A stretch of 36,954 nt of DNA from Candidatus Woesearchaeota archaeon (lineage in GTDB: Archaea > Nanobdellota > Nanobdellia > SCGC-AAA011-G17 > JAGVXY01). Position 1 is the stretch's first letter, and every line of letters begins with the position of its first letter. The position numbers were made by a program, and so were the translations under genes. The notes beneath the pieces were generated by a model that saw only the letters and a list, made by a program, of their open reading frames with translations, ran no database searches and was not told the DNA's origin. The stretch spans positions 1-36,954 of the forward strand of contig JAGVXY010000015.1 in NCBI GenBank assembly GCA_018303545.1, written 5' to 3'. Below are positions 5,111 through 36,918 of this stretch, in pieces.

Positions 5111-8100
5111 TTAATAAACTTTTACTCTAGTTAAAGTCGTGACCTTATCGTCTTCTCTCATCCGCATTATTCTCACGCCTTGGGTGTTCCTGCCAATTGT
5201 AGAAATCTCCTGCGCAAGCATCCTTATCATTATACCCTGCTTTGAGATCAGCATAATCTCATCCTCATCCATAACTGTTTTGATGCCGACAACATTTCCG
5301 TTGCGTTCAGAAGTCTTAATATTAATCACACCTTTTCCGCCCCTGTTAATTAACCTGTAATCTGAAACAATAGTCCTCTTGCCGTAGCCATTCTCAGTTA
5401 TTGTCAATAAAGTTCCTGTCTCAACAGCGACTTCCATGCCGACAACATAATCATCTTTTGACAACCTTATTGCGCGAACGCCAGTTGCTGCACGGCCCAT
5501 TGCACGAACCTGAGATTCATTAAACTTGACAGCCATCCCTTTAGCAGAAGCGATAACCATATTTAGTGTTCCAGGAGTTAATTTGACTTCAACGAGCTTG
5601 TCATTTTCTCTCAAAGTCAAAGCAATTATGCCTCCTTTTCTTGGCCTTGAAAATGATTCTAAAGGCGTTCTCTTGATTGCACCAAGTTTTGTGACCATCA
5701 AAAGATAATGATCCGAGTCAAATTTAGGTATTGGAATCATTGCGGTGATTTTTTCATTTTCAGCAAGAGCCAATAAATTGATTATTGCCTTTCCTTTTGA
5801 ATATCTTGAAGCCTGTATAATTTCATATCCCTTGAGCCAGTAGACTTTTCCTAAATCAGAAAAGAATAAAAGGTAATTGTGGCTGTTCATGTTGACCATA
5901 TGCTCTACTGTATCTTCTTCTTTTGTCGCAGTGCCTTTGACGCCAACTCCTCCACGCTTCTGCTGCCTATATTCATCTAATGTAGTTCGTTTAATGTAGC
6001 CTGAATGTGTAAGTGTAACTATTGAGGATTCTTCAGGAATAAGATCTTCATCTAGAATCTCGGCATCTTCTTCAGTACCTGAAATTTCAGTTTTACGAGA
6101 GTCCGAATATGATGCAATAATCTCTTGTGTGTCTTTCTTCATCAGGGCGTAAACTTTTGAATCATCTGCTAAAATTGATTTTAAATCCTCTATTGTTAAT
6201 AATAAATCTTTATATTCCAGCAGTAATTTATCTTTTTCCAATGAGGTTAATTTCTGCAGCTTCATATCTAAAATTGCACGGGCCTGAATTTCAGTCAATT
6301 CAAAACGAGCCATCAAAGATTCGCAAGCTTCATTAGGCCCTTTTGAAGATTTTATTATTTTAATTGACTCATCAATATTTTCCAAGCAGATTTTCAAACC
6401 TAATAAAATATGAGCCCGCTCTTCTGCTTTTCTCAAGTCAAACTGTGTTCTACGGGTAATGACATTTTTTCTGTGCTTGATGAAATGCACAATGCAATCT
6501 TTCAAATTTAAAATTCTTGGCTGATTATTAACCAAGGCTAAATTAATTATGCTGAAAGTAACCTGCAAAGGAGTATGAGTATATAATTGATTTAAAACAA
6601 CATCTGAATTTGCATCTTTTTTCAATTCAATTACAATTCGCATTCCCTGCCTATTGGACTCATCTCTTAAATCTGAAATGCCTTCAACACGCTTATCACG
6701 AACTAAGTCTGCGATATTTTCTATGAGCATTGATTTATTTACCTGATAAGGAATCTCAGTAATAATTAGACTTTCACGGTCTTTCTTTTCTTCTTTCTCA
6801 ACTTTTCCTCTCAAGCGGATCTTTCCACGGCCGGAAGCGTAAGCATTTTTTATTCCGGAAGTGCCGCAAATTATACCTCCAGTAGGGAAATCAGGGCCAT
6901 GAATGATATCCAATAATTCATTGATAGAAATATCTGGATTGTCAATTACCTTTATTACGCCTTCGCAGACTTCACGCATGTTGTGCGGAGGAATACTAGT
7001 TGCCATGCCTACGGCAATACCTGAAGAACCATTAATTAATAAATTTGGGATTCTTGATGGAAGAACTGAGGGTTCCTGTCTAGTATTATCATAGTTGTCG
7101 ACAAAGTCTACAGTTTCTTTTTCTAAGTCTAAAAGAATTTCATCTGCAATCTTTGTCATTCTTGCTTCCGTATTATGATTGATAAAACCGTTTGCAACAA
7201 ATGAATGGCATTTGCTGTTTACCCTTATTGAATAAACATTTTCTTTTTCTTTCGGTTTCTTGACTGAAGCAATGTGATCAAACAAATATCTCTGTTTCAG
7301 CAAAAGCGCTAAAAAAGACTTATCTTTTGAATCAAGAATATCCAATAGTTTTTTAAAATATTTTTCAAGTTTATTATATCTGTCAACATTATATCTCTTG
7401 ATAAATCCGGAACCATATTTTTTTCGCAGATATTCCCCAAGATAAGGAATGAAATCAGTCTTGCTCATCCTATCTGGATTTATGCTGTTTATTTTTGAAA
7501 GAATTCCTTTTTTTCGGTCTGAAAAAAATCCAATATTCGTATTGAACCTCTTTATTGAATCATGGCCAGAAATTATCAATTTAAAGCAACTGTTTCTCTT
7601 ATCCTGGTAAGGTTTTGTTGAAATAATCCCAAAATTCAATAAAATGACTTTCAGCTGATCAATGAGCTTATTACTTTTAGAATTATAGTTTAGAGCCATA
7701 CTTTTTCCATTATGCCTTTTATCTAAGATGTATTTAACGGATCCGTCACCTTCAAATAATGCCCTTAAGAAATGCTGAATGTTTTTCTCAGTGGACATTA
7801 AAACAGAGAAAGGCATCTCTTTTTGTGCGGATTTAACTTGAATTAAACCAATGTTCTTAAGGAATAGAACCACTTTCTGCTCATATATGCTTAATTCTTT
7901 GCAATTTCCTTTTATTTCCCTCTCGTATAGTCTTACACCCACAAACTGAGAGAGGATAATTGATTTTACCTTATCGTAAAAGTTTTTGTCTTTATTATTA
8001 AACAATATTTGATTATTATGGAAACTCCCCTCGCTGACTAAAGCACCCAATAAAAATGCCAGGTTATCATTCATCTTGCTAGGAAGTACAATCTCATTCT

Positions 8101-9999
8101 TGAAACCTTTATTTGGATAATATTTTCTTAGATCTAAACTTGTTTTTGAAAATAAACTTTTGCCCCTGCTCAAAATAACTACATCTTCTTTTCTAATATG
8201 CTCTAATAGTTTCCATTCTATCTGCGGGACTTCGCCCTTAATTGTCCAGCACATTAATGGATGATTATGAGATCCTTTAATCTTGTAACCTAAGTTAGTC
8301 TCTAGCTCTATAACACTATGTTTTCCTGAATTAAAAAACTTAGATGCCTTGTTTTTCTTTTGGTCAAAAGACATTATTCTAAAATTAATTTTTGATTCTA
8401 ATTTATTTGAAATTTCTTTTATGGGCATTATGCCCTTATCAGTTAACATTAAAGAATCGCCAGAAATACAATACCTCATTGCAGCTGCATTATCTCCATC
8501 AACAGAGTTGTGCACAAAGACTCCTGAAGCCAATGCAAAATTATGGGTATCGTCGATAGTTAAATCGTAGACATCAGCATATTCATGGATAAACTCTATT
8601 TTTGAAACCTTGTGATTTCCGTTCAATTCACATAATATTAAATTTGAATCATTCGAAAAATATTTTTCAAATCCATTATCCCAAGTTGTAAAACATTTTC
8701 CACCAAAGACAACCTTTCGAACTTTTTCGTAGTAATCTCTTTTTATTGGCAACTCATTCTTTTGAAGAAATTTGCATATGTTAATAAATTTCCTTTTTCC
8801 GGTTAAATTAGTCTTTCTTCTTTTATTTGAAGCGATAATTTTTTCATTAAATAATTCTTTATATTTCGGAATTGACCACATCCTTTTCATGGTTGATGAG
8901 GCCAACTTACGACTGCGTTCAATAACTTCTGGATGCGCAATAATATATCTCTTGCTAATTTCACTTAACTTTGCGCTCATCTCTTTTTTATATTCTGGAT
9001 TCTTCCAATTTGCGAGATTTCTTTCTCTTAACCTTTCTGAATAAGCTTTTCTATTTTCTGAATTTGCCCAGAACTTTTTTCTCCCTTCGATTAATTTATT
9101 CCTAAATGATTCATCTGTTTTGTGCTTAAAAGATGTTAAATTGTGATGAAATTGCCAATGTTCTTTATATCCCATACGTTTTATATTATCTGGATTATTA
9201 TTGCATTTGTCAAAATTAATATGGTGCCTCACTCTTCCTGCAGCTTTCAGATAGACTGCGTTTTTGATGTTCCAATTGTCAGCTAAATAATGAACAAAAT
9301 CCCAAGAACAGCTTTTTGGCTGAAAAATCATATCGTAACCGATCATTTCAGGATTGATTTCTTTTGTGGCTTTCTTGAAATACGCCGGCATTAAAGAATC
9401 TCCTGGTTTTAAATATTGAGCTTCTTTGTATTCCTTGTTTTTTAACATAAACTTATGGTTAAGAGTGCATTTAATTTCTTCATTATTGTCCAAGATAATT
9501 TTCATGACTTCTGCATTTTTCTTGGTTAATCTTGGTTTCTTTATTTCGGTAATGTGTATTTTTCCATTATCCTCAATAGTGTATGTGAAATTTCTTTTAC
9601 CTTCTTGGAATTCCTTAACTAATTCAATAAAAGGTAAATCTCTTCCATCGGTCAATTTAACTTTGGTTTCACCTGTAAAACAACCAAAATTTCCCTGACC
9701 ATCAACTAATGTGTATCTTAAAGAAAAGTCCTGGGCCATACGAACCAATGAAGGGTAGACTATTGCTTCACCATGAGGATGATAGTTACCGCTTACGTCA
9801 CCGCAAATCTTTGCGCATTTTCTATATTTTGCCTTATGATCCAAAGAAAGATCATTCATAGCAACCAAGACTCTACGATGAACTGGCTTCAGACCATCTC
9901 TGACATCAGGCAATGCCCTGGAAACTATGACACTCATAGCATAGTCTAGATAAGATTTCTTCATCTCATCTTCCACTAATTTATGGATTATTTCTTTGG

Positions 10000-10003
<4 letters not shown>
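5111..10003 (-). CDS. gyrA: DNA gyrase subunit A with two inteins
   Basis: GyrA motifs (ALPDVRDGLKPVHRR, AMRY/TEARM) and C-terminal beta-pinwheel repeats. Removing 392 aa and 433 aa of inteins leaves about 805 aa. Confidence 0.96.
7172..8470 (-). mobile_element. GyrA intein 2 with LAGLIDADG endonuclease, about 433 aa, at the catalytic Tyr
   Basis: AAAMRY|CISGDSLMLTDKG...SFVANGFINHN|TEARMTK. LAGLIDADG-like LLGALVSEGS and LRALFEGDGS. Confidence 0.95.
8507..9682 (-). mobile_element. GyrA intein 1 with HNH-like homing endonuclease region, about 392 aa
   Basis: GQGNFG|CFTGETKVKLTDGRDLPF...[19 protein letters not shown]. Cys1, terminal HN, Ser+1; HHINFDKCNNNPDNI HNH-like block and NUMOD3-like repeats. 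Confidence 0.93.
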
Positions 10004-13819
<3,816 letters not shown>

Positions 13820-25370: not shown

Positions 25371-27343
25371 TACAAATTTAAAATAGAATTACTGGTTAAT
25401 AAAGCTTACGATTAGGGGTTGCCACGAGCTATATTAAGCAATAACTTGCGTTCTGCTTTAGCAACGACTGTACGAATTGTATGAACTGCATCGGGATTTG
25501 CAGAAATACTATCTATCCCACATTTAACCAAAAATTCTGCCATCTCCGGTCTTGAACCAGCTTGGCCACAGATGCTTGTATTAACCCCATATTTTTTGCA
25601 GACTTTTATTACGCTTGCAATTTGCCTTAAAACTGCTGGATGCATTTCATCATAAAGATTTTGAACGCGAGCATTGTTTCTATCTATTGCTAAAGTGTAC
25701 TGTGTAAGATCATTTGTTCCAAAACTTACAAAATTTATGCCCTCCCTACAAATCTCATCTATTATCTGAACTGCAGCAGGAGTCTCAACCATAATTCCAA
25801 ACTCAATATCTTTGCATGGCTCGAACCCGCACTGTCTAATTAAATCTTTTGATTGTTTAATCTGATCAAGATGAGTAACTAGTGGAATCATTACGCCTAC
25901 ATTTGTAAGGCCTGCTTCATGAATCTGTTTAATAGCTTCTATCTGTGTCTTGAAAAGTTCAGGTTCACCAAGATCTCTTCTTATTCCTCTAAAACCCATC
26001 ATGGGATTATCTTCAATAGCTTCATCTTGGCCGCCTTCCATATTTCTGAATTCATCAGTTGGAACATCTAAAAGCCTAACCCAAACTTTTTTGCCCTGAA
26101 AAGCTCTTGCAATAGTAGTCATACCTGAAACTAAATCGCTTAAAAGCTCTGCCTTTCTGCCAGACTTAATTAGAAATGATGGATGAGCCTTGCCAGAGAG
26201 CATCATATGCTCAACCCTTAAAAGACCAACTCCATCAGCACCTGTCTGTGCTGCATGCTCTGCAAACTTAGGAAGGTCCATAACTACCTTAACCTCCGTT
26301 GCGGTTTCTATCTCAAAATGCTCTGCAGACTCAGCACGTAATGAAGCTTCTTCCGTCTTTTTTGAACCTAAATCTAATCTACCCTTGTAAACTTTTCCGT
26401 TTGTAGCATCTACTGTGATTAGCTCATTATCTTTTAGAATTTTTGTGGCATTATTAGTACCGACAATAACAGGAATTCCCATTTCACGGCCAACTATTGC
26501 TGCATGACTTGTTGAACCGCCTTTATCTGTAACAATTGCGCAGGCTTTTTCCATTGCGCTGACATAATCCGGATCTGTCATCTCAGCTACGAGAACATCG
26601 CCTTTTTCAATCTTAGTTAATTCGTCGGCATTGCGGATAATCTTTACAGGACCGATGCCCACACCCGGAGAAGCTGGAAGACCTTCAACAATTGGCTCTG
26701 CGTGATCCCCGTTGGAAATGTTCTCTTCCTTGCTTAACTGCTCTTTCTCTGAATAAGGCTTCTTCAAGGTAGTTATTGGTCTTGATTGTACAACGAAAAT
26801 TCTTGAACCTTCAATTGCAAATTCAATATCTTGTGGTTTAGTATAATGCTTTTCTATCTTAACTGCGAGCTCTGCTAATTTTTCTATTTCAAATTGAGAA
26901 AGCTTCTGTGTTTCCTGCTTATCTGCAGAAATATCCTTCTTAATATTTGCGCCTGTATTAATATCAAGAGTAATCATCCATTCCTGCCGGTTAATCTTTT
27001 TTGATTTCAAAGATAAATTATTTTTGTCAATAATGTATTGATCTGGATTAATGGCGCCAGAAACAACAGCTTCGCCTAGACCAAACCCTGCTTCGATTTC
27101 TATTTCAGAATCATCGCTGTTCATCGGATTTACTGAGAACATTACGCCTGACTTGTCCGACTTAACCATTTTCTGAACTATCACTGAAATTAAAACCTTG
27201 TTGTGATCAAAATTATTTTTAACCCTGTAATAAATTGCCCTTGCTGTATATAAAGAGGCCCAACATCTTTGAACTGCATCTAGCAGACGTTTATTACCTT
27301 TAATATTCAGAAAAGTTTCTTGCTGCCCTGCAAATGAAGCAGT

Positions 27344-28937
27344 ATTATGCGTTATTATTCCGCCTACGCCTGCTGCGAAGTTTTGCGTTCCTGGAACCAC
27401 AAAATCGTAAACATCTCCTTGATATTCAATTTCTTCAACTCTTTTTATTGGATCCCACATAACATCTGCATTTGCAATCTCTAATAATTCCGGAGAATTC
27501 AATCTTTGCGCAATCTTATTGAAGTAATTTAAACCATAAGTTTGAAGCAGTTTACGGTTCCCTTTATTCCAAGGGGCTGCGTTCTTTGTGAATCTTCCTG
27601 AAATATCATAATTAATTAGCTTATTGACGGATTTTTCCTTTAGGTTACCGTTATCTGAAACGGATTTATTGCAATCCTCGCATACGTACCTCTGCTTTAG
27701 ACTTGAAGATTTGCCACCTTTTTTCATAATGCCTGAGCAGAACGGGCATTCCATTACATCAATTAAATCAAAATTAATGTCTTTTTTAAGATACTTTTCC
27801 ATTAATTCAGAGATTTTTTGGCTTGGTGGCAAAGTGTCAATATAATTATACTGTTTAGTCCTATTACTGTAATTTTTTATAAGGGTGTTTAATCTCTTAA
27901 TTTTTGCATCTTCAGTCAAACCAATCTTTTCCTTAAATAATTCTGCTTCATAGATGGGTATTGCAACTGTGTGATTCTTTGTGAGATAGCATCTAATGCC
28001 CAGCATTTCAATCAATTTTATTACTCCACTAAGCAGTTCCTTTGACACAGAAGTATATTGAATGCCCTTTTCAAAGATATAACCATCTCCATCAAAGCAA
28101 CCCTTTAAAAATGAGCCTATTTTCTCCTCATTGAGGTTGAATATCAAATTTGGAACTTTCTTAATTCTTGCAGATCTCCCTTTTCCTTTAACATTTGTTG
28201 AAGGACTACCAAATAATTCGTGTAGCAATTCAACGAGAACCTTATTGAAAATTCGAACATTCCCTAATTTCGGTTTGGCCAATTTGCATTTTTTTTCAAA
28301 ATATTTTTCAACTTTTTCTGCCAATTCTTTTGATTCACAGGAAAAATCAACGCAATTGTCCTCATAAGTAGAACCTTCTGCAGCAATCAACGCAATTGTC
28401 CTCATAAGTAGAACCTTCTGCAGCGTACAATCCTAAAACATAAGCCAATTCGTTATCCACCTCTAATTTTAATGGAAAATCATTTTGAATTGAATGTTTT
28501 TTGCTATTTATCTTTACTCGGTTGTCTTTAATTAAAATTGGCTTTTTGATTATATCTGAAACTATTATCTCTTTAATTTCTTTGGTATTAGGCAGAGGTA
28601 TCCTTTTAATGACTGGAACACGGGTGTTTTTTGTGATATCTTTAGAATTTAAAACATCTAATTGAAATGTTTCAGGATTAAGAGCAAGCAAAGAGTGCTG
28701 CGGAGTTATTGTAATATGCCTGCCTGTTTTTGTAAGGATCTTGATTAATTTTGCCCCATTTGCAGGATGTTTGTATATTTCTGAAGCGCGAATCCATTCT
28801 AATTTATTATTTTTTAAGGAAGGAATAAATATCTTTGCATCTTGATCTTTTTCATAAATCAACCATAATTTCTCCATGCTTGTATGAACTACTTCATTAT
28901 CGATTTTAACAAGCACAAACTCGTCCTTGCCTATACT
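27344..28937 (-). mobile_element. PEP synthase intein with LAGLIDADG endonuclease, frame disrupted
   Basis: AEDLP|SIGKDEFVLVKI...GVGGIITHN|TASFAGQQ; LGLYAAEGS and LKGCFDGDGY motifs. 1594 nt minus 40 = 1554 nt = 518 codons. Confidence 0.88.
28345..28424. repeat. Perfect 2 x 40-bp tandem duplication
   Basis: Copies 28345-28384 and 28385-28424 are identical: aatcaacgcaattgtcctcataagtagaaccttctgcagc. Confidence 0.97.
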
Positions 28938-29415
28938 GGGCAAATCCTCGGCAGTTGCTGAAGACCTCACTGCAACTAAAGGAGCATCTCTACCTGCTTT
29001 GATTAAATCCATCGCTTTTTTGTTCTTTGTTTCAAAAACGCTATCATCTATGTTAAGATTTTCATATGCCTCCAAAATGTCATCTCTTATGTTTAGGGGC
29101 ATTGGTTGACTTAAAATTATTTCTTTAATTTTTCTTGATGCCGCCTGCAACTCTTCATTATCATCAACGTTTACTCTTGCTAAAATTGTGAAAATATCAC
29201 TGCCTACGCCTGTATCTAAAAACTTCTTAAAAGCGTTTGCGGAAATTGCAAAACCGGGGGGAATGGGAAAACCTGCGTTGTACATCTCGCCTAAAGAGGC
29301 ACCTTTGCCGCCGGCTATAGCTATATCTTCCTTGAAAAGCTCCTTGAACCAAACGACATTATCTGACAAACCGCATCACCCCTTTGATACAAATTTATAA
29401 GTAATATTACTTTTT

Positions 29416-29504
29416 AAAGGTTTCTGAAGCGGATTAGAAATTTGTTAAAAATGAGTTAAGCGCGTTCATTCTTTGATTATACGTATTTGCGTGAGATGCA
29501 TAGG
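29416..29504 (-). pseudogene. Relic of an RT gene 3' end (direct repeat A)
   Basis: Minus-strand translation YASHANTYNQRMNALNSFLTNF* versus intact RT end YASHANTFNQRRSVLNSFLTNLFQKP. Confidence 0.8.
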
Positions 29505-29530
29505 CAAATATAAAACAGACAATTTAAATG

Positions 29531-30064
29531 CTATTTACACAAGTCATTTGGGACTTTAAAGTCCTTATTAGAGAAAACTATTTCTTCGGCCTGAGAAATT
29601 GCTTTCATGCAAACTTTTGTCATATACTCAAATTTTCTTTCGATATCTTTACTAGTTATGGATGAGCCATATCTTGCTGTTTCTCTTTCATCCACATCTG
29701 ATTTTTCTCCTTTAGCAGCATAAACGGTTATTCTATCAATAAATTCATCATCATATTCCATCAATTTATTGTCTTTGGCGTATCTAAGAAAAGCAGCTGT
29801 GCATTTTTGGCTTCTGCTCTCAATTCCAAATTTGGACAAAATGGCAAGGGCACAATAATACAGGGTATAAAACCATTCTTCTGGAATCTTATAATCATAC
29901 CCCTGTGATTTATACAATTCGCAAAGCTGTAAATTAATTTTCGCCTTAGCGAGATATTCTTTGGCAAGCTTACTATCAGACTTGACAATTAGGAGACCTT
30001 TATGTTTTTTGCCCTTTTCCTCATCTTTCTTTGCAAGAACAAAACATTCCCTTACTTCTTTCAT
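29531..30064 (-). CDS. HEPN-domain-like protein, partner of the adjacent MNT nucleotidyltransferase
   Basis: All-helical, AKINLQLCELYKSQGYDYKIPEEWFYTLYYCALAILSKFG; overlaps the MNT gene by 4 bp. Confidence 0.65.
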   Translation of the reverse strand: MKEVRECFVLAKKDEEKGKKHKGLLIVKSDSKLAKEYLAKAKINLQLCELYKSQGYDYKIPEEWFYTLYYCALAILSKFGIESRSQKCTAAFLRYAKDNKLMEYDDEFIDRITVYAAKGEKSDVDERETARYGSSITSKDIERKFEYMTKVCMKAISQAEEIVFSNKDFKVPNDLCK

Positions 30065-30660
30065 CTTTGAGCTATGAGTCGCATAAACTTTATAAATTTT
30101 TCCTGCCCGAATGAAATTATTCCTTTTTTAACTGCATCAATCAGCGCCTTATTTGCCGCTTTAAGCTCTTTTTTGAATTCAGATTGAGTAAAGTTGATGG
30201 CATGAATCTTCTTTATCTGGGTCTTTTGGATTTTTCCAATAGATTTTTCAATCTCTAAAAATTTGTTCTCATTGGCCACGATTAAAATATCTATATCATT
30301 TGCCTCTTTTGGAGAATGAATTATGCTCCCGTAAATCAAGAGAAAGTCTACTTTACCTTCTAATTCTGCAAAATTGCTCATCCATCTTTGGTTATTTAAG
30401 GCATCTTTAGTTAATATTAGAGAAAGCGTTTTTTCTACAAGGGGGTTATTCCAATTCAAGCTTATGCTGAACGCGCTTGTTTTTCCAGTTCCAACTGGTG
30501 AAATTATAATGAATGTATCATTATCTAACTTTTTTATTACTTTCCATGCTCCGACTCTACTCATGCCAACCTCTTTAGCTAAAGATGTTACCGTCTGGCT
30601 TGCTGTGAAATCTTTTAATAAGATCTTCAGGATTCTGCTATCTGGCTTTTCTGTTTCCAT
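30061..30660 (-). CDS. HTH plus minimal nucleotidyltransferase (MNT)
   Basis: N-terminal HTH TVTSLAKEVGMSRVGAWKVIKKL; NTase motif LLIYGSIIHSPKEANDIDILIV (GS...DxD). Confidence 0.8.
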   Translation of the reverse strand: METEKPDSRILKILLKDFTASQTVTSLAKEVGMSRVGAWKVIKKLDNDTFIIISPVGTGKTSAFSISLNWNNPLVEKTLSLILTKDALNNQRWMSNFAELEGKVDFLLIYGSIIHSPKEANDIDILIVANENKFLEIEKSIGKIQKTQIKKIHAINFTQSEFKKELKAANKALIDAVKKGIISFGQEKFIKFMRLIAQR

Positions 30661-30678: not shown

Positions 30679-31773
30679 TTAAATGTTAATAGTTATATTT
30701 AAAGGTTTCTGAAACAGATTTGTTAAAAACGAGTTAAGAACGCTCCTTCTTTGATTAAATGTATTTGCGTGAGATGCGTAAGCGAGCCATCCCTGCAAGG
30801 AATCGTATATCTGACTGTAAGTTGTATAATCTGATTCGTAATCGGATAATAATGAAGCTAGGTGATTATTGAAATTTACTAGATTTGCTTTTCTTAATAA
30901 TTTATAATGATAAAAAATTCTGTAGCCTAAAAAAGCAATTCCTTTTTTTAAAGGAATAATTTTCGACTTATCTGGATGAAGCTCAAGTTTTAATTCATCT
31001 TTCAAGAAATTTGTGATTTCTTTTTTATAATTTCTAAGAATTAAACTTTGATTATCTAAAATAACGAAATCATCTACATATCTTATGTAGTATTTTGCTT
31101 TTAATTTGTGCTTTACAAAGTAATCAAGCTCGTTCAAGTAAACATTCGCAAAAAATTGCGAAGTTAAATTTCCCAATGGCATGCCTTTGCCGTTTGTTTT
31201 TGAATCAAAATTGCTTATTATCTGATTTATCAGCCATATTACTTTCTCGTCTTTTATTTTCTTATTTACTATTTTTAATAGTATTTCATGATCGACTGCC
31301 TCAAAATAATGCTTTACATCTGCCTTTAAAACATAGCCTTTTACCGAGTTATTGCTGTATGGCTCATTAATCAATTTGCCGTTGCTGGAGACAATTCTCT
31401 TAAATTTATCAAATCTTAACAAGGCGTTTATTGTGCCTTTATTTATTCTGCTTGCGTAGGAATCGCAGATGAATATCTTTTCATAAATCGGATCTAAGAT
31501 GTTTACAAGTGCGTGATGGACAACCCGGTCGCGAAAGGCAGACTTATGAATTTTTCTTGTTTTCGGATCGCGTATGGCAAACTCTTTCAAGGGCTTTGGC
31601 TTGTAGCTTAATAATTCTAACTCTTGCTTTAAGTTTGCTAATTCTGCTTTAAGATTTTTTTCAAATTCTATAACGCAAGATTTATTTGTTTTTCTTTTTC
31701 TTGCCTTCTTGAACGCTTTTTCGAGGTTCTCTTGAGAGCAGAGAGAAAGATATAGATTCTTGTAAGTTTTCAT
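30679..31773 (-). CDS. DGR-type reverse transcriptase
   Basis: KADVKHYFEAVDHEIL, GKGMPLGNLTSQFFANVYLNELD, YIRYVDDFVIL. Start placed at ATG 31773 because the ORF extension to 31902 runs through the template repeat. Confidence 0.93.
   Translation of the reverse strand: MKTYKNLYLSLCSQENLEKAFKKARKRKTNKSCVIEFEKNLKAELANLKQELELLSYKPKPLKEFAIRDPKTRKIHKSAFRDRVVHHALVNILDPIYEKIFICDSYASRINKGTINALLRFDKFKRIVSSNGKLINEPYSNNSVKGYVLKADVKHYFEAVDHEILLKIVNKKIKDEKVIWLINQIISNFDSKTNGKGMPLGNLTSQFFANVYLNELDYFVKHKLKAKYYIRYVDDFVILDNQSLILRNYKKEITNFLKDELKLELHPDKSKIIPLKKGIAFLGYRIFYHYKLLRKANLVNFNNHLASLLSDYESDYTTYSQIYDSLQGWLAYASHANTFNQRRSVLNSFLTNLFQKPLNITINI
30701..30780 (-). repeat. RT 3' end (direct repeat B)
   Basis: About 56 of 65 core positions match repeat A by hand alignment; shared aaaggtttctgaa at the distal end. 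Confidence 0.8.
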
Positions 31774-31801
31774 TTTCAGGCCTAGAAAAACTTGGGTTAT
31801 T

Positions 31802-31882
31802 CCGAGCTCAGCATTCGAATTGCCAGGAGTCCTATTGCAATTGAGGTTAGCCCTGTCCGAATTCGCCCTGAACCTAGCGACG
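31802..31882 (-). other. DGR template repeat (TR), about 81 bp
   Basis: Coding-strand match to both VRs with differences only at TR adenines; Asn-rich if translated (FRANSDRANLNCNRTPGNSNAELG). Confidence 0.93.
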
Positions 31883-32042
31883 GCCATTTGTAGCAAATCC
31901 ACTGACTATGCACCATGATTTTAGCATTCACTCAAAACTTCCCCAAGGTTTTTCATCACTACCAACTATTATCATTGAATTTTATGGCATAAACCTATAT
32001 TTATGCACTAATGGATTTACGTGTAGCCCAAGTATTTTGTCT

Positions 32043-32058
32043 CTTGATGGGCATCAAG
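32043..32058. promoter_or_regulatory. Palindrome in the TR upstream region
   Basis: cttgatg-gg-catcaag perfect inverted repeat between target 1 and the TR. Confidence 0.35.
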
Positions 32059-32137
32059 AAACTTTTCTAAGGCAAATTGATACTTTAGATTGAGTTTTAA
32101 TATATTTATATATTTTAACTATTATTTTCTAATACCT

Positions 32138-32977
32138 TTATTTCCTGTGGAAAAACGCGTGACGTACCCCGAGCTCAGCACTCGAATTGCCAGGAGTCCA
32201 ATAGCAAACGAGGTAAGCCCAGCCCGAATCCGCCCTGAACCCAGCGACGCTGTTGTTGTCGTCTCTTGGATAATAATGATAAAAGTTACTTCCTTGGACG
32301 TAATTCTGTACGCTTGATTCTGTTGTTGGCATACCTTGATTGTTGAAATCTAAGTTTACGTAGCAGTCTTTCTTTATTGGCCAAATTAAATCTTCTATAT
32401 TATCTGGGACTAAAACACCATTGACTAATTTATGATTGTAATTGATAATCAATTTTCCCAAAGCCTTATTTTTGACCTTGAAATCTGCATCGAGCCATTC
32501 TGCCCTCCAGGGATCTCTTTTTTCTGTGATTTCGTTGTAAATATTTCTTATTTCTTCTTTGAGGATTTTATTTCCTGCGCCGTCATAAATATCTTCTCCT
32601 GAATTCAAGAACATAATAAAATCTGTAAACTGCTTCAAATTCAATGTGAAACCATTTAATTCCAAGTTTAGTTTCAATGCATCAAACCAATCTATATTTC
32701 CGATGTAATTCCTGCCGTTCTGCTCTTGTTTTGTGTTGCTTAGGCTTAAACTTAAAGAATTGGCTGCTTCTTGGACTTTGTTATCCAAGCTTAATCTGTA
32801 TTTTGAAACTAGAATAATATCGCTGCCTTGAGGAAGCTGAATATAATCTTCCGGCTTTCCTACTTGCGAAACACTAACGAGGGGTTTATTTGGATCTTCT
32901 TTTGGAGCTTTAGGCTTCTCTTTGTCCAAGCCAAGGTATTCAATCATTCTTTTATATTCTTCTTCTGTGTAAGGCAT
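32138..32977 (-). CDS. DGR target protein 1, C-terminal variable C-type-lectin-like region
   Basis: Ends SVAGFRADSGWAYLVCYWTPGNSSAELGVRHAFFHRK; VR at the 3' end; paralogue of 34751..35590; preceded by gaggtaattaaaATG. Confidence 0.9.
   Translation of the reverse strand: MPYTEEEYKRMIEYLGLDKEKPKAPKEDPNKPLVSVSQVGKPEDYIQLPQGSDIILVSKYRLSLDNKVQEAANSLSLSLSNTKQEQNGRNYIGNIDWFDALKLNLELNGFTLNLKQFTDFIMFLNSGEDIYDGAGNKILKEEIRNIYNEITEKRDPWRAEWLDADFKVKNKALGKLIINYNHKLVNGVLVPDNIEDLIWPIKKDCYVNLDFNNQGMPTTESSVQNYVQGSNFYHYYPRDDNNSVAGFRADSGWAYLVCYWTPGNSSAELGVRHAFFHRK
32141..32153. other. Short inverted repeat downstream of VR1
   Basis: tttcc-tgt-ggaaa; same position after VR2; absent after the TR. Confidence 0.5.
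32169..32249 (-). other. DGR variable repeat 1 (VR1)
   Basis: 10 substitutions relative to the TR, all at TR adenines on the coding strand. Confidence 0.93.
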
Positions 32978-32978
32978 T

Positions 32979-34736
32979 TTAATTACCTCTCCTGTAAAGC
33001 GAATTAGTCACATGCAATAAAGACGCGGGCAGGTTATTGATATTTTCAACCTTATGAGCAACTACAAATTTGTCCCTGTTTCTATCGCTGTAATTCTTAA
33101 TAGCATTATAAATATCAGACTCATTGCCTATCTGAATCCAAATCAGCGGACCATTATGATTTAACAAAGCATTAATAGCCTCTAATGAATTGTCTATCTG
33201 GCCATCGCTTATGCCCACCAATGCGCATCCGGCTTTGTCCGCGGATTTCAAAAGATTTATTGGCATTGAAGTCTCGCCGCCAAAATTATCATTCTCAATA
33301 GTGTTATAAAAGACTCTTTCTAAACGATCAATATCACTGCACCATCCTGACCAGGACTGGTTTGCCTTGGAACTGAACTGCAGCAAGCCATACTGCAATA
33401 AGTGAGCTTTTCTCTCCTGCTTCAAACCTTCAAATATTGCATAAACTGTATCTATCATCAGTGAATATTCATAGCCCTTCATGCTTCCTGAATTGTCACA
33501 CACCAAAAGCAAATCTGCCAGACTGCCTTCACTAGACTTGCTTCTTGGAGGCAATACCAAAGGAATCATTTTTTTCTTAAACTGCAGACCGCCGCCAACT
33601 TTAGCTCTTGTCTTGCCTAAAGATGCCTTAGCAATATTATCGGTCTTTCCTGAAGAGAGATGCGCATAAGGCAGAGAATACTGCGAAGAATTGTCTTTGC
33701 CAGATCCGAATATATCGTGCCTTATCTTTTTTCCAGCCATCTTATGCTTCTCTTTAAAAACTTCAAAACTATCCATGTAAGGCGAAGGATCGTGGCTCTT
33801 CTGCAGCGCAATCTGTATCAGCTGTGATCTGAATCCAGGATCATTCTTTAACTTTGAAAAGAAAGGCGTCATCGGCAGATTCATATTTGATTCCAAGTGT
33901 GCGGTAAGCTTTGCATAATCATAAGCTAACTGCGACCAATTTTCAGGATTCTTGAGATGATTAATTAATTCTAAAATTTCTTTTTCATTCAATTCGCCTT
34001 TTATTGAAGCTGGACCTAACTGCAGTTCTTTTCCGAAAGCCATAAGCACCGAATCAATTATTGGCTTGGCTTCCTTATTATAATTAGGGCAGTAATCTTT
34101 TGCAAAATCCGCTTTTGGATTGAATATCTTCATCTGAATATCTGCGAAGACTGCATAGGATGAATTTAAATTTGGTTTCTTTTCATCTAAAAATACTTCT
34201 CTTAAATATTTCAGACTTCTGCCTTTTATTGTTTCTTTGTGGTCTATGGCTAATGAGCAATTATCAACAATATCTTCAAACTCGTTTGCTGTTCTATAAA
34301 TCTTCTGCTTTATCTTTGATTCATCAAGACCTGCATCTTTCAAGCCTCTTGAGACAGCATCAAGAATCATTTCAAAATGATTTTTATCATACGGACAGTA
34401 GCGCCAGTGGCCATGCTCATGCAGTGTTACAGATTTCAGAACATCCTCGGGTGTGCCGTATGTTTCATTGAATTCAGAGGCGTTAATTCTTGATTCTTTT
34501 CTGAATATTTTAAAAATGCTTTTTTTCTTTCTTGAAAGGTGAGATGCTTTTGCCCTTTCAAACATTCCTCTCCAATCTGGATCATATTCTATGTTTACTT
34601 CATAGGTATCATTTAATATTGCCGCTTCAAGTCCATGAGCTGTTTGTTTTTCTATGCACTTTAACTGGAATTGTGAGTAGCCAATCTCGTCTAAATGCAT
34701 TCTTGCTTCTTTTTCAATATTAACTTTTGTCCTCAT
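32979..34736 (-). CDS. HExxH metallopeptidase-like plus VWA-domain protein, DUF2201-like
   Basis: SVTLHEHGHWRYCPYD (HExxH), TANEFEDIVDN; LLLVCDNSGSM (MIDAS DxSxS). Confidence 0.8.
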   Translation of the reverse strand: MRTKVNIEKEARMHLDEIGYSQFQLKCIEKQTAHGLEAAILNDTYEVNIEYDPDWRGMFERAKASHLSRKKKSIFKIFRKESRINASEFNETYGTPEDVLKSVTLHEHGHWRYCPYDKNHFEMILDAVSRGLKDAGLDESKIKQKIYRTANEFEDIVDNCSLAIDHKETIKGRSLKYLREVFLDEKKPNLNSSYAVFADIQMKIFNPKADFAKDYCPNYNKEAKPIIDSVLMAFGKELQLGPASIKGELNEKEILELINHLKNPENWSQLAYDYAKLTAHLESNMNLPMTPFFSKLKNDPGFRSQLIQIALQKSHDPSPYMDSFEVFKEKHKMAGKKIRHDIFGSGKDNSSQYSLPYAHLSSGKTDNIAKASLGKTRAKVGGGLQFKKKMIPLVLPPRSKSSEGSLADLLLVCDNSGSMKGYEYSLMIDTVYAIFEGLKQERKAHLLQYGLLQFSSKANQSWSGWCSDIDRLERVFYNTIENDNFGGETSMPINLLKSADKAGCALVGISDGQIDNSLEAINALLNHNGPLIWIQIGNESDIYNAIKNYSDRNRDKFVVAHKVENINNLPASLLHVTNSLYRRGN

Positions 34737-34750
34737 ATTTCCTAATACCT

Positions 34751-35590
34751 TTATTTCCTGTGGAAAAACGCGTGACGTACCCCGAGCTCAGCATTCGAAT
34801 AGCCAGGAGTCCAATTGCAATTGAGGCCAGCCCTGCCCGAATCCGCCCTGAACCCAGCGACGCTGTTGTTGTCGTCTCTTGGATAATAATGATAAATGTT
34901 ACTTCCCTGCTGATAATTTTGTACGCTTGATTCTGTTGTTGGCATGCCCTGGGCGTTGAAATCTAAGTTTACGTAGCAGTCTTTCTTTATTGGCCAAATT
35001 AAATCTTCTATATTATCTGGGACTAGGATGCCATTTTTCAACTTATGATTATAATTTATAATTAAGTTCTTCTTGCTTTGACCTTTAGTCTTGAAATCAG
35101 CGTCGAGCCATTCTGCCCTCCAAGGATCTCTTTTTTCTGTGATTTCGTTGTATATATTTCTTATTTTTTCTCTTGATATAAGACTTCCTGCACCATTGAA
35201 AATGTCTTTATTTGAAATTAATAATTCTAATAAATCTTCGAATTGTTTTAAATTTAAAGTAAAACCGCCTAGAGTTAAGTTCATTTTTAATGCGTCGAAC
35301 CAAGTTATGCTGCCAATGTATCCTCTGCCGTTCTGCTCTTGCGAGGAATTATTTAAACTTAAACCTAAAGATACAGCTGCTTTTTCTACTTGGTCATCCA
35401 AGCCTAATCTGTATTTTGAGACCAGAATAATATCACTGCCTTGAGGAAGCTGGATGTAATCTTCTAATTTTCCTACTTGGAAAGCTTTAATACTGGGTGC
35501 AATTGGATCTATTTTTGGAGCTTTTGGCTTCTCTTTGTCCAAGCCAAAGTATTCAATCATTCTTCTGAGCTCTTCTTCTGTGTAAGGCAT
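34751..35590 (-). CDS. DGR target protein 2, C-terminal variable C-type-lectin-like region
   Basis: Ends SVAGFRADSGRAGLNCNWTPGYSNAELGVRHAFFHRK; same length as target 1 and alignable throughout. Confidence 0.9.
   Translation of the reverse strand: MPYTEEELRRMIEYFGLDKEKPKAPKIDPIAPSIKAFQVGKLEDYIQLPQGSDIILVSKYRLGLDDQVEKAAVSLGLSLNNSSQEQNGRGYIGSITWFDALKMNLTLGGFTLNLKQFEDLLELLISNKDIFNGAGSLISREKIRNIYNEITEKRDPWRAEWLDADFKTKGQSKKNLIINYNHKLKNGILVPDNIEDLIWPIKKDCYVNLDFNAQGMPTTESSVQNYQQGSNIYHYYPRDDNNSVAGFRADSGRAGLNCNWTPGYSNAELGVRHAFFHRK
34754..34766. other. Short inverted repeat downstream of VR2
   Basis: tttcc-tgt-ggaaa, identical to the VR1 copy. Confidence 0.5.
34782..34862 (-). other. DGR variable repeat 2 (VR2)
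   Basis: 7 substitutions relative to the TR, all at TR adenines on the coding strand. Confidence 0.93.
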
Positions 35591-35595
35591 TTTAA

Positions 35596-36918
35596 TTACC
35601 TCAGACCTTTATACTGAACTGGAACGCTTTCAAAATCCCTTAATCCAACGCTCCAAGGATCTTCCTCAGAATACTTTTTAATCTGCGCAAGCTCGTCAGG
35701 GGTATAATCCTTCTTGAGCATTAATTTACCCAATGATTTAACCTTGCTCATAATCTTCTGCTCAATATTTATAGTAAGTGCTTTTGCAGCTTCAAATGGC
35801 TCTCCTGATGCAAACGATTTTTCAAGCCATGCCGGATCAAGACCCATTTTGGTCGCGCATACAAATGGAAATGACTGCAAAACATCAGCGAACGAAACTT
35901 CTAAAGATTTTGGCATCTTGCCGCTGGAAGCTGCAATATGATGCGCCCTAACTAAAGCGAATCCTCTTGCAACATTTGCGATATCTTCATGGGGCGCTTC
36001 CGGAGCGTAAACATTTCCGCAAAAATTCTCCTTGCCTGCGAGGCCTCTCGCGTGGCAGCCATCGCATTTCTCAACCGAAAATCCGCGTTCACGTTTGGTC
36101 TTAAAAACCGCTTTTATACAATTATCCATTCTACCAAGATAAGCCAGAAATTCATTTGCAACTGGATGAAAAGATATCTTATTCAAATTAGTATGAATCT
36201 CTTTTATATCTTCAAAAACTCCTTCAGATTGAGAGACGTATAAACCTGTGCCAGTTCTTGCCGCCTTGCTTCTTTGCTCCATATCATATTGATTTGGCGC
36301 AAAAAGATTCAATGAAATTTCAATCGGCCACCTTCTCCTGAAAGCAGGATCTATATTAAAAGTCCCTTCGTCAAATTCCTTGCCTTCATTGCAAGTGCCT
36401 ATCTTGAACTGATAAAACCCTATTCCTGGAATTTCAATTCCGACTTGCCTTGAACCCCCACCGGAAGGGGTCACTGCCTGATTATTCATATAAGCTTGCA
36501 ATATATTTAATATCGCCTGCGGAGCCCTCATAACTTCATCAAGAAGAACGCCTGGAGAAGTTATTAACTTTGTATTTTTGATAGCCTCAGAAAGCAATCC
36601 TTGCTGCAGCTTTTCACCATCCAAATCAAATAATTTTTCAGCTTCAAGAGAAGGATCTATCTGCAAAATACCAAAATTATCGCGGCCATAAAGACCTGTC
36701 AGGCAAGCTAATGCCAAGTGAGTTTTTGCAATACCTGTAGAACCATTTAGAAGAATGTTCCTCCCTGTGCTCGGACCTATAACTCCAACAATATCCTTCA
36801 AATCCAATTGCGGGCCTTTACTATAAGCAGTCATAGGTGTGCTATGGTAAATAAAAGAACTAGCATTTCTAATGGATGATTCAATATTATCTACTTTTTC
36901 AATCAAATTGTCTATCAT
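35596..36918 (-). CDS. MoxR-type AAA+ ATPase
   Basis: Walker A-like NGSTGIAKTHLA, Walker B-like GVLLDEV, sensor-like IGTCNEG, DPAFRRRWPIEI; Cys-rich CDGCHARGLAGKENFC insertion. Confidence 0.85.
   Translation of the reverse strand: MIDNLIEKVDNIESSIRNASSFIYHSTPMTAYSKGPQLDLKDIVGVIGPSTGRNILLNGSTGIAKTHLALACLTGLYGRDNFGILQIDPSLEAEKLFDLDGEKLQQGLLSEAIKNTKLITSPGVLLDEVMRAPQAILNILQAYMNNQAVTPSGGGSRQVGIEIPGIGFYQFKIGTCNEGKEFDEGTFNIDPAFRRRWPIEISLNLFAPNQYDMEQRSKAARTGTGLYVSQSEGVFEDIKEIHTNLNKISFHPVANEFLAYLGRMDNCIKAVFKTKRERGFSVEKCDGCHARGLAGKENFCGNVYAPEAPHEDIANVARGFALVRAHHIAASSGKMPKSLEVSFADVLQSFPFVCATKMGLDPAWLEKSFASGEPFEAAKALTINIEQKIMSKVKSLGKLMLKKDYTPDELAQIKKYSEEDPWSVGLRDFESVPVQYKGLR

Follow-up and report, generated by a model that had tools for sequence, protein, structure and literature searches.

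Operon-specific N-terminal tags on diversified proteins of an archaeal MoxR/HExxH-VWA operon: a candidate modular recognition machine

The stretch analysed here (36,954 nucleotides, contig JAGVXY010000015.1 of a Candidatus Woesearchaeota archaeon; hereafter the window) carries at 30679-36918 a diversity-generating retroelement (DGR) whose two target genes lie among those for a MoxR-type AAA+ ATPase and for a protein with an HExxH motif and a VWA domain. The question raised by this locus is why proteins subject to diversification should be built into such an operon. The minus-strand order is MoxR, target 2 (T2), HExxH-VWA, target 1 (T1), template repeat (TR) and reverse transcriptase (RT), with gaps of 5, 14 and 1 bp between MoxR and T2, T2 and HExxH-VWA, and HExxH-VWA and T1 respectively; this agrees with the order and tight spacing of the first four genes claimed in an earlier note made from the sequence alone. 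The evidence below points, with odds that we place a little above even, to a modular machine by which DPANN (Nanoarchaeota-type) archaea recognise partners inside the cell: an AAA+/zincin-VWA core that works with plug-in binders, most likely in a conflict role.

A recurring operon and its tags

Of 371 genomes of the phylum, 34 encode the target family, whose members have C-type lectin-like (CLec-like) bodies, and 31 the HExxH-VWA family; 14 encode both, against 2.8 expected (p ~2e-8). Loci were drawn from these genomes and also from named Woesearchaeota, Pacearchaeota and Nanoarchaeia records. Among them, besides the window, L033, L034, L036, L037, L042, L045, L053, L064, L116 and L121 have MoxR - target - HExxH-VWA - target, often with a TR and RT after or flanking it; identity of the window MoxR and VWA proteins to those of the recurring loci is only ~17-24%. 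With the same order in about a dozen Woesearchaeota/Pacearchaeota-type loci, the targets are, as had been proposed, true and repeated parts of the MoxR/HExxH-VWA operon. In L033 (genome G057) the last-gene position is filled by further tagged open reading frames (ORFs) beyond the VWA gene, and MoxR with a target and no VWA gene was seen in L041, L046 and L120. The ends of the single 829-kb contig of genome G074 join in AAA - target - HExxH-VWA - target - TR - RT, a fit from which we infer that the contig is a closed circle; its AAA and HExxH-VWA proteins are very divergent, were missed by profiles and were found by a motif scan. G074 had been a candidate orphan-target genome, which the divergent core at the contig-end junction ruled out.

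The targets of one operon have near-identical first ~25 residues (the tag) and a disordered linker, after which they diverge. In the window the T2 tag (MPYTEEELRRMIEYFGLDKEKPKAP; 35516..35590, minus strand, as are all window features below) is 88% identical over 25 amino acids to the T1 tag (MPYTEEEYKRMIEYLGLDKEKPKAP; 32903..32977), and in an AlphaFold2 model of T2 (mean predicted local distance difference test score, pLDDT, 83) a short N-terminal helix at residues 5-14 is followed by a low-confidence linker (~19-40) and then the body. Within operons (28 target-family pairs) the tags have a median identity of 80% and the bodies one of 32%; between operons (378 pairs) the medians are 24% and 36% respectively. 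Tag similarity tracks VWA similarity across 12 operons (Mantel r 0.71, p 2e-4), and this correlation is 0.64 (p 6e-4) when the bodies are controlled for, although shared descent of whole operons contributes to it and is controlled only through the bodies; the correlation of tag with body, with VWA controlled, is 0.01. Targets outside operons are mostly tagless, and the few tagged ones have a tag matching that of an operon in their own genome (L051 that of L050, L085 that of L064, and L089 that of the G074 operon, which lies 123 kb from the L089 target). Another N-terminus conserved across genomes, for example MAIQIIGRKIEARPNEV, is found on non-operon targets in L057, L058, L065, L066, L070, L074 and L075.

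VWA relatives that lack the CLec-like target family have neighbours of ~200-370 residues with an N-terminus shared within the operon. The binders of L090 and L091 have PMP-type beta-helix repeats (Pfam 1e-9 for L090), those of L098 leucine-rich repeats (2e-39); L092 has propeller repeats in a single gene (weak, 6e-5), and L100 and L102 encode probable propellers without a convincing Pfam match. In L097 the binders are a further DGR target family, which has an RT and TR to itself, each of its three targets showing changes at 10 of ~36 adenines and 0 of 56 other positions. A profile of the L033 tag, run over 2317 ORFs, matched only other L033 binders, the N-termini of the L090/L091 beta-helix proteins and the L096 binders (E 3e-7 to 3e-3), and by eye several of these binders have a short hydrophobic-G-polar motif (IIGDK, VLGQR, FMGKP, LFGKS) before a helix-like stretch. 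The sequences thus show interchangeable binders made up of an operon-specific tag, a disordered linker and a variable body. The earlier note had seen the targets as possible adaptors feeding the ATPase; this role is supported, in that a tag that is operon-specific and tracks the VWA protein is the pattern expected of such an adaptor. Docking by means of the tag is well supported, though it is something that we infer.

Some related arrangements depart from this layout. L101, L106 and L107 represent a subtype, MoxR - X - HExxH-VWA, with a conserved X that lacks the tag design; GHKL-type ATPase genes follow in L101 and L106, and the subtype may be an earlier form of the system. In L116 a different target (5305-5922, plus strand) is encoded upstream of the MoxR operon, and its variable repeat (VR) region resembles the VRs of the operon targets. 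The two binders of L093 (8078-11668, minus strand) are 87% identical and differ near the C-terminus (AAWLGC...ARGVR), which suggests diversification by a DGR whose RT lies outside the sequence examined.

Core, targets and retroelement of the window

The window MoxR (440 amino acids; 35596..36918) matches Pfam AAA_5 (3e-7), has a weak PHROG ATPase match and matches bpMoxR (PF20030) at 3e-4, below the cut-off. It has a Walker A (GSTGIAKT), a Walker B (LLDE), sensor-1 N177 and Arg finger R196, and these residues are kept in its relatives with few exceptions. The HExxH-VWA protein (585 amino acids; 32979..34736) matches Pfam VWA below threshold (1e-4), and the VWA domain of its model gives a fold match with probability 1.0. 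In an alignment of 30 family members HExxH is present in 29 (HEHGH in the window, residues 106-110, 34407..34421), together with an invariant N..(E)D in which the Asp, D155 of the window and a candidate third zinc ligand, is found in 30/30. The metal ion-dependent adhesion site (MIDAS; pattern DxSxS/T/D) is nearly invariant, with DxSxS in nearly all of the 30 and DxSxT in one; in the window it reads DNSGS (residues 414-418, 33483..33497). The family therefore combines HExxH with a conserved downstream ligand candidate, the sequence signature of a zincin; a zincin fold for the HExxH half could not be confirmed by structure prediction, for which the model was too poor. That the machine is proteolytic, as the earlier note had allowed, is possible, given the family-wide conservation of HExxH and MIDAS, whereas the DUF2201 label of that note has to be dropped, there being no DUF2201 Pfam match in 10 members at E<=0.1. 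The MoxR ATPase and the zincin-VWA protein form a conserved core, and the window has the MoxR plus vWA pair that marks the core of MoxR-vWA ternary conflict systems. All-against-all clustering of locus neighbours gave no hidden extra effector and no further gene of broad conservation; a nucleotidyltransferase came up repeatedly, in 3-4 loci.

T2 (34751..35590) and T1 (32138..32977) are both 279 amino acids long and share 78% identity, and each has its VR inside the gene, that of T2 near the C-terminus. The best match of the T2 model in the PDB is the Mtd protein (1yu3; E 8e-3, probability 0.82) with formylglycine-generating enzyme (FGE) next; since these matches are moderate, none being below 1e-3, a CLec fold of the bodies is likely rather than proven. 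A Pfam scan found no convincing domain in T1 or T2, a PDB sequence search no convincing relatives of the targets, and NCBIfam, PADLOC and PHROG no family for the window VWA protein or target.

The 81-bp TR (31802..31882) was recognised by blastn as a repeat of VR1 (32169..32249) and VR2 (34782..34862), which differ from it at 10 and 7 positions respectively; 17/17 differences fall on TR adenines, and none of the 62 other TR positions is changed. An RT with adjacent TR and VRs, and differences confined to TR adenines, identify the element as a DGR. Its RT (364 amino acids; 30679..31773) matches Pfam RVT_1 (1e-17) and the phrog_1423 reverse transcriptase (PHROG, 1e-114), its nearest match in a collection of phage records being the ANMV-1 virus RT (43% identity). 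Changes are confined to adenines at most loci bearing a TR; pooled over all loci they amount to 437/962 adenines versus 112/2312 other positions, figures that include probable matches to other targets rather than the TR in L097 and L116. The idea that the TR is an in-frame part of the RT ORF was dropped, as it is so in about one-third of loci, the chance expectation. A viral origin was likewise rejected: IMG/VR holds no relatives of MoxR or T2, and phage and plasmid records none of the VWA protein.

T1 and T2 have no hydrophobic segment, signal peptide or membrane segment, in keeping with the earlier view that the targets could act inside the cell, and are probably cytosolic; across 52 operon binders a 19-residue window exceeded 1.4 in only two, within the body. 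A target-family protein in L039 (9531-10535, minus strand) combines an additional N-terminal domain with a lipoprotein-like signal peptide; because its genome also has two tagged operons, some members may be at the surface and others in the cytosol within one genome.

The RT gene is directly followed downstream, at 29531-30660, by a helix-turn-helix nucleotidyltransferase (PADLOC PDC-M05A, 2e-12) and a small HEPN-like protein, and similar genes are found beside the related loci L093, L045 and L092. Past this pair, the 3' part of the RT gene recurs as a short degenerate copy (29430-29510), as if either the pair had inserted there or the end of the RT gene had been duplicated. Further along, the phosphoenolpyruvate synthase gene (25412-29369) is interrupted by an intein with a broken reading frame near 28362-28405 (a frameshift or an assembly error), and GyrA and GyrB (5111-10003 and 10655-13780) are apparently interrupted by inteins, GyrA seemingly by two.

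Proposed mechanism and its rivals

In the mechanism that we favour, the tag would dock each binder on the VWA/MoxR core, perhaps at the metal site of the MIDAS or in the AAA+ pore, and the variable body would capture an intracellular partner protein. At the expense of ATP, MoxR would then pull on or remodel this partner, and the HExxH domain may cleave it or a regulatory segment. The DGR would supply new specificities and leave the docking tag unchanged, the most likely purpose being a conflict role in which the cell is defended against viruses or other invaders; anti-invader proteolysis is plausible. A bolder form, to which we give somewhat less than an even chance, is an archaeal immune-like constant/variable design in which a docking tag on unrelated folds steers one shared AAA+/zincin-VWA machine; specificity would evolve freely as the docking part co-evolves with the machine. 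From the tag one could predict the core on which a given protein docks, in trans as well, and, if the tag is a docking peptide, the system offers a natural platform for fitting new binders to an AAA+/protease-like machine.

Several observations weigh against this recognition machine. At identical residues synonymous codon differences have a median of 25% in the tag versus 43% in the body (25 divergent pairs, p 0.008), so that tags look younger at the DNA level than bodies. Because of these fewer differences, tags may have been partly homogenised by recombination, or bodies swapped behind them, and recombination or gene conversion, not selection for docking, could account for some of the tag identity; in G254, L096 and some of G170 the tag protein is conserved despite many synonymous changes, an indication that selection acts too. 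CLec target members outside recognised operons (~48 ORFs) outnumber those inside (~30), and one, that of L039, bears a lipoprotein signal; the earlier note had named a family found mostly without MoxR/VWA neighbours as evidence to the contrary, and by count it is so found, yet the outsiders are mostly untagged. The HExxH-VWA model has a whole-model pLDDT of 53 and is usable for the VWA domain only, PADLOC and NCBIfam gave no match for the window MoxR or VWA protein, and no nuclease, TIR or pore effector was linked to the window core.

The main rival is maturation and export, in which the tag is a leader removed by its cognate HExxH peptidase and MoxR-VWA chaperones assemble the binders on the surface for attachment to a host cell. 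A tag that tracks a peptidase-VWA protein also fits a leader with its processing enzyme, known MoxR-VWA pairs mature other complexes (PMC9976466), passages of two papers propose host interaction for DPANN DGR proteins (PMC5006420, PMC10907252), and the L039 relative has its lipoprotein signal. The lack of signal peptides and membrane segments in T1 and T2, the rarity of hydrophobic windows among the 52 binders and the absence of a conserved secretion gene from the neighbour clusters speak against it, and we regard export as unlikely, if well worth keeping in mind.

More doubtful still is a sensor switch, by which ligand-bound binders would activate the MoxR/VWA core and its protease, or an unlinked effector, would kill the cell or arrest growth. 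Such a switch would parallel the bacterial MoxR-vWA-DGR ternary conflict systems (PMC7159879, PMC10907252), and the nucleotidyltransferase/HEPN-like pair adjoins the window RT and some related loci; the pair is found in a minority of loci, however, and no VMAP, TIR, caspase, trypsin or EAD gene is conserved among the neighbours. The many target-family members without MoxR/VWA could also suggest that a DGR cassette came by chance to lie beside an unrelated MoxR/VWA operon. This is refuted by the repeated architecture and we give it almost no credence: the same order holds across genomes of different families whose cores are ~20-24% identical to that of the window, and in the highly divergent G074 locus, and targets stand on both sides of the VWA gene with gaps of a few bases.

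Comparison with known systems

The general idea is not new, since bacterial MoxR-vWA ternary conflict systems that include DGR-diversified CLec domains have been described (Kaur et al., 2020, PMC7159879; Dore et al., 2024, PMC10907252). As in these VMAP-class systems, where the domains are CLec/FGS, MoxR and vWA are here coupled to DGR-diversified domains that probably have a CLec fold; cytosolic variants exist among them and recognition by the hypervariable domain has been proposed (PMC7159879, PMC10907252). The bacterial variable domain is usually fused to vWA, whereas the window targets are separate tagged ORFs; the bacterial third component is a VMAP with a peptidase, TIR or EAD (effector-associated domain), whereas in the loci of these DPANN hosts no VMAP was found, and an HExxH domain is fused to the VWA protein. 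Pfam domains of a third component (VMAP, iSTAND, FtsH or a vWA-fused beta-propeller) were absent from the scanned window genes, and none was conserved in the neighbourhoods. To bpMoxR systems there is a weak MoxR-domain similarity; they have a propeller fused to vWA, whereas propellers are here separate binders of some relatives only.

A full-text literature search for MoxR with Woesearchaeota, or MoxR/VWA with DPANN, turned up, among the papers listed, none on such loci, although an earlier mention is possible (Paul et al., 2017, was not covered). Roux et al. (2021, PMC8144416) could not tell whether archaeal DGR targets without membrane domains are genuinely non-membrane, and Dore et al. (2024, PMC10907252) stated that DPANN DGRs of clade 5F have no link to conflict domains; the present loci link DPANN DGRs directly to an ATP-driven machine and to a probable cytosolic location. 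AvpA (Handa et al., 2016, PMC5006420) and the ANMV-1 virus DGR share with the window an archaeal DGR, a related RT and, probably, a CLec fold, but the passages concerned mention no MoxR/VWA partner or tag, and the VR position differs from that of the window.

NorQ/NorD, CbbQ/CbbO and RavA/ViaA likewise pair a MoxR ring with a VWA adaptor partner; in NorQD the MIDAS of the VWA protein binds the client while the MoxR ring remodels it (PMC9976466). Each serves one fixed client and has no variable binders, tag family or DGR. Similar to the tag in principle are the EADs (Kaur et al., 2020, PMC7159879), N-terminal modules that recruit interchangeable modules to a core; they are described as interacting homotypically, whereas the tag is a peptide of ~25-45 residues whose profile matches binders only, and not MoxR or VWA. 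What is new in comparison with the bacterial MoxR-vWA systems is the archaeal host group, the separate tagged binders, the zincin-VWA fusion, a system without VMAP, and unrelated folds on one tag.

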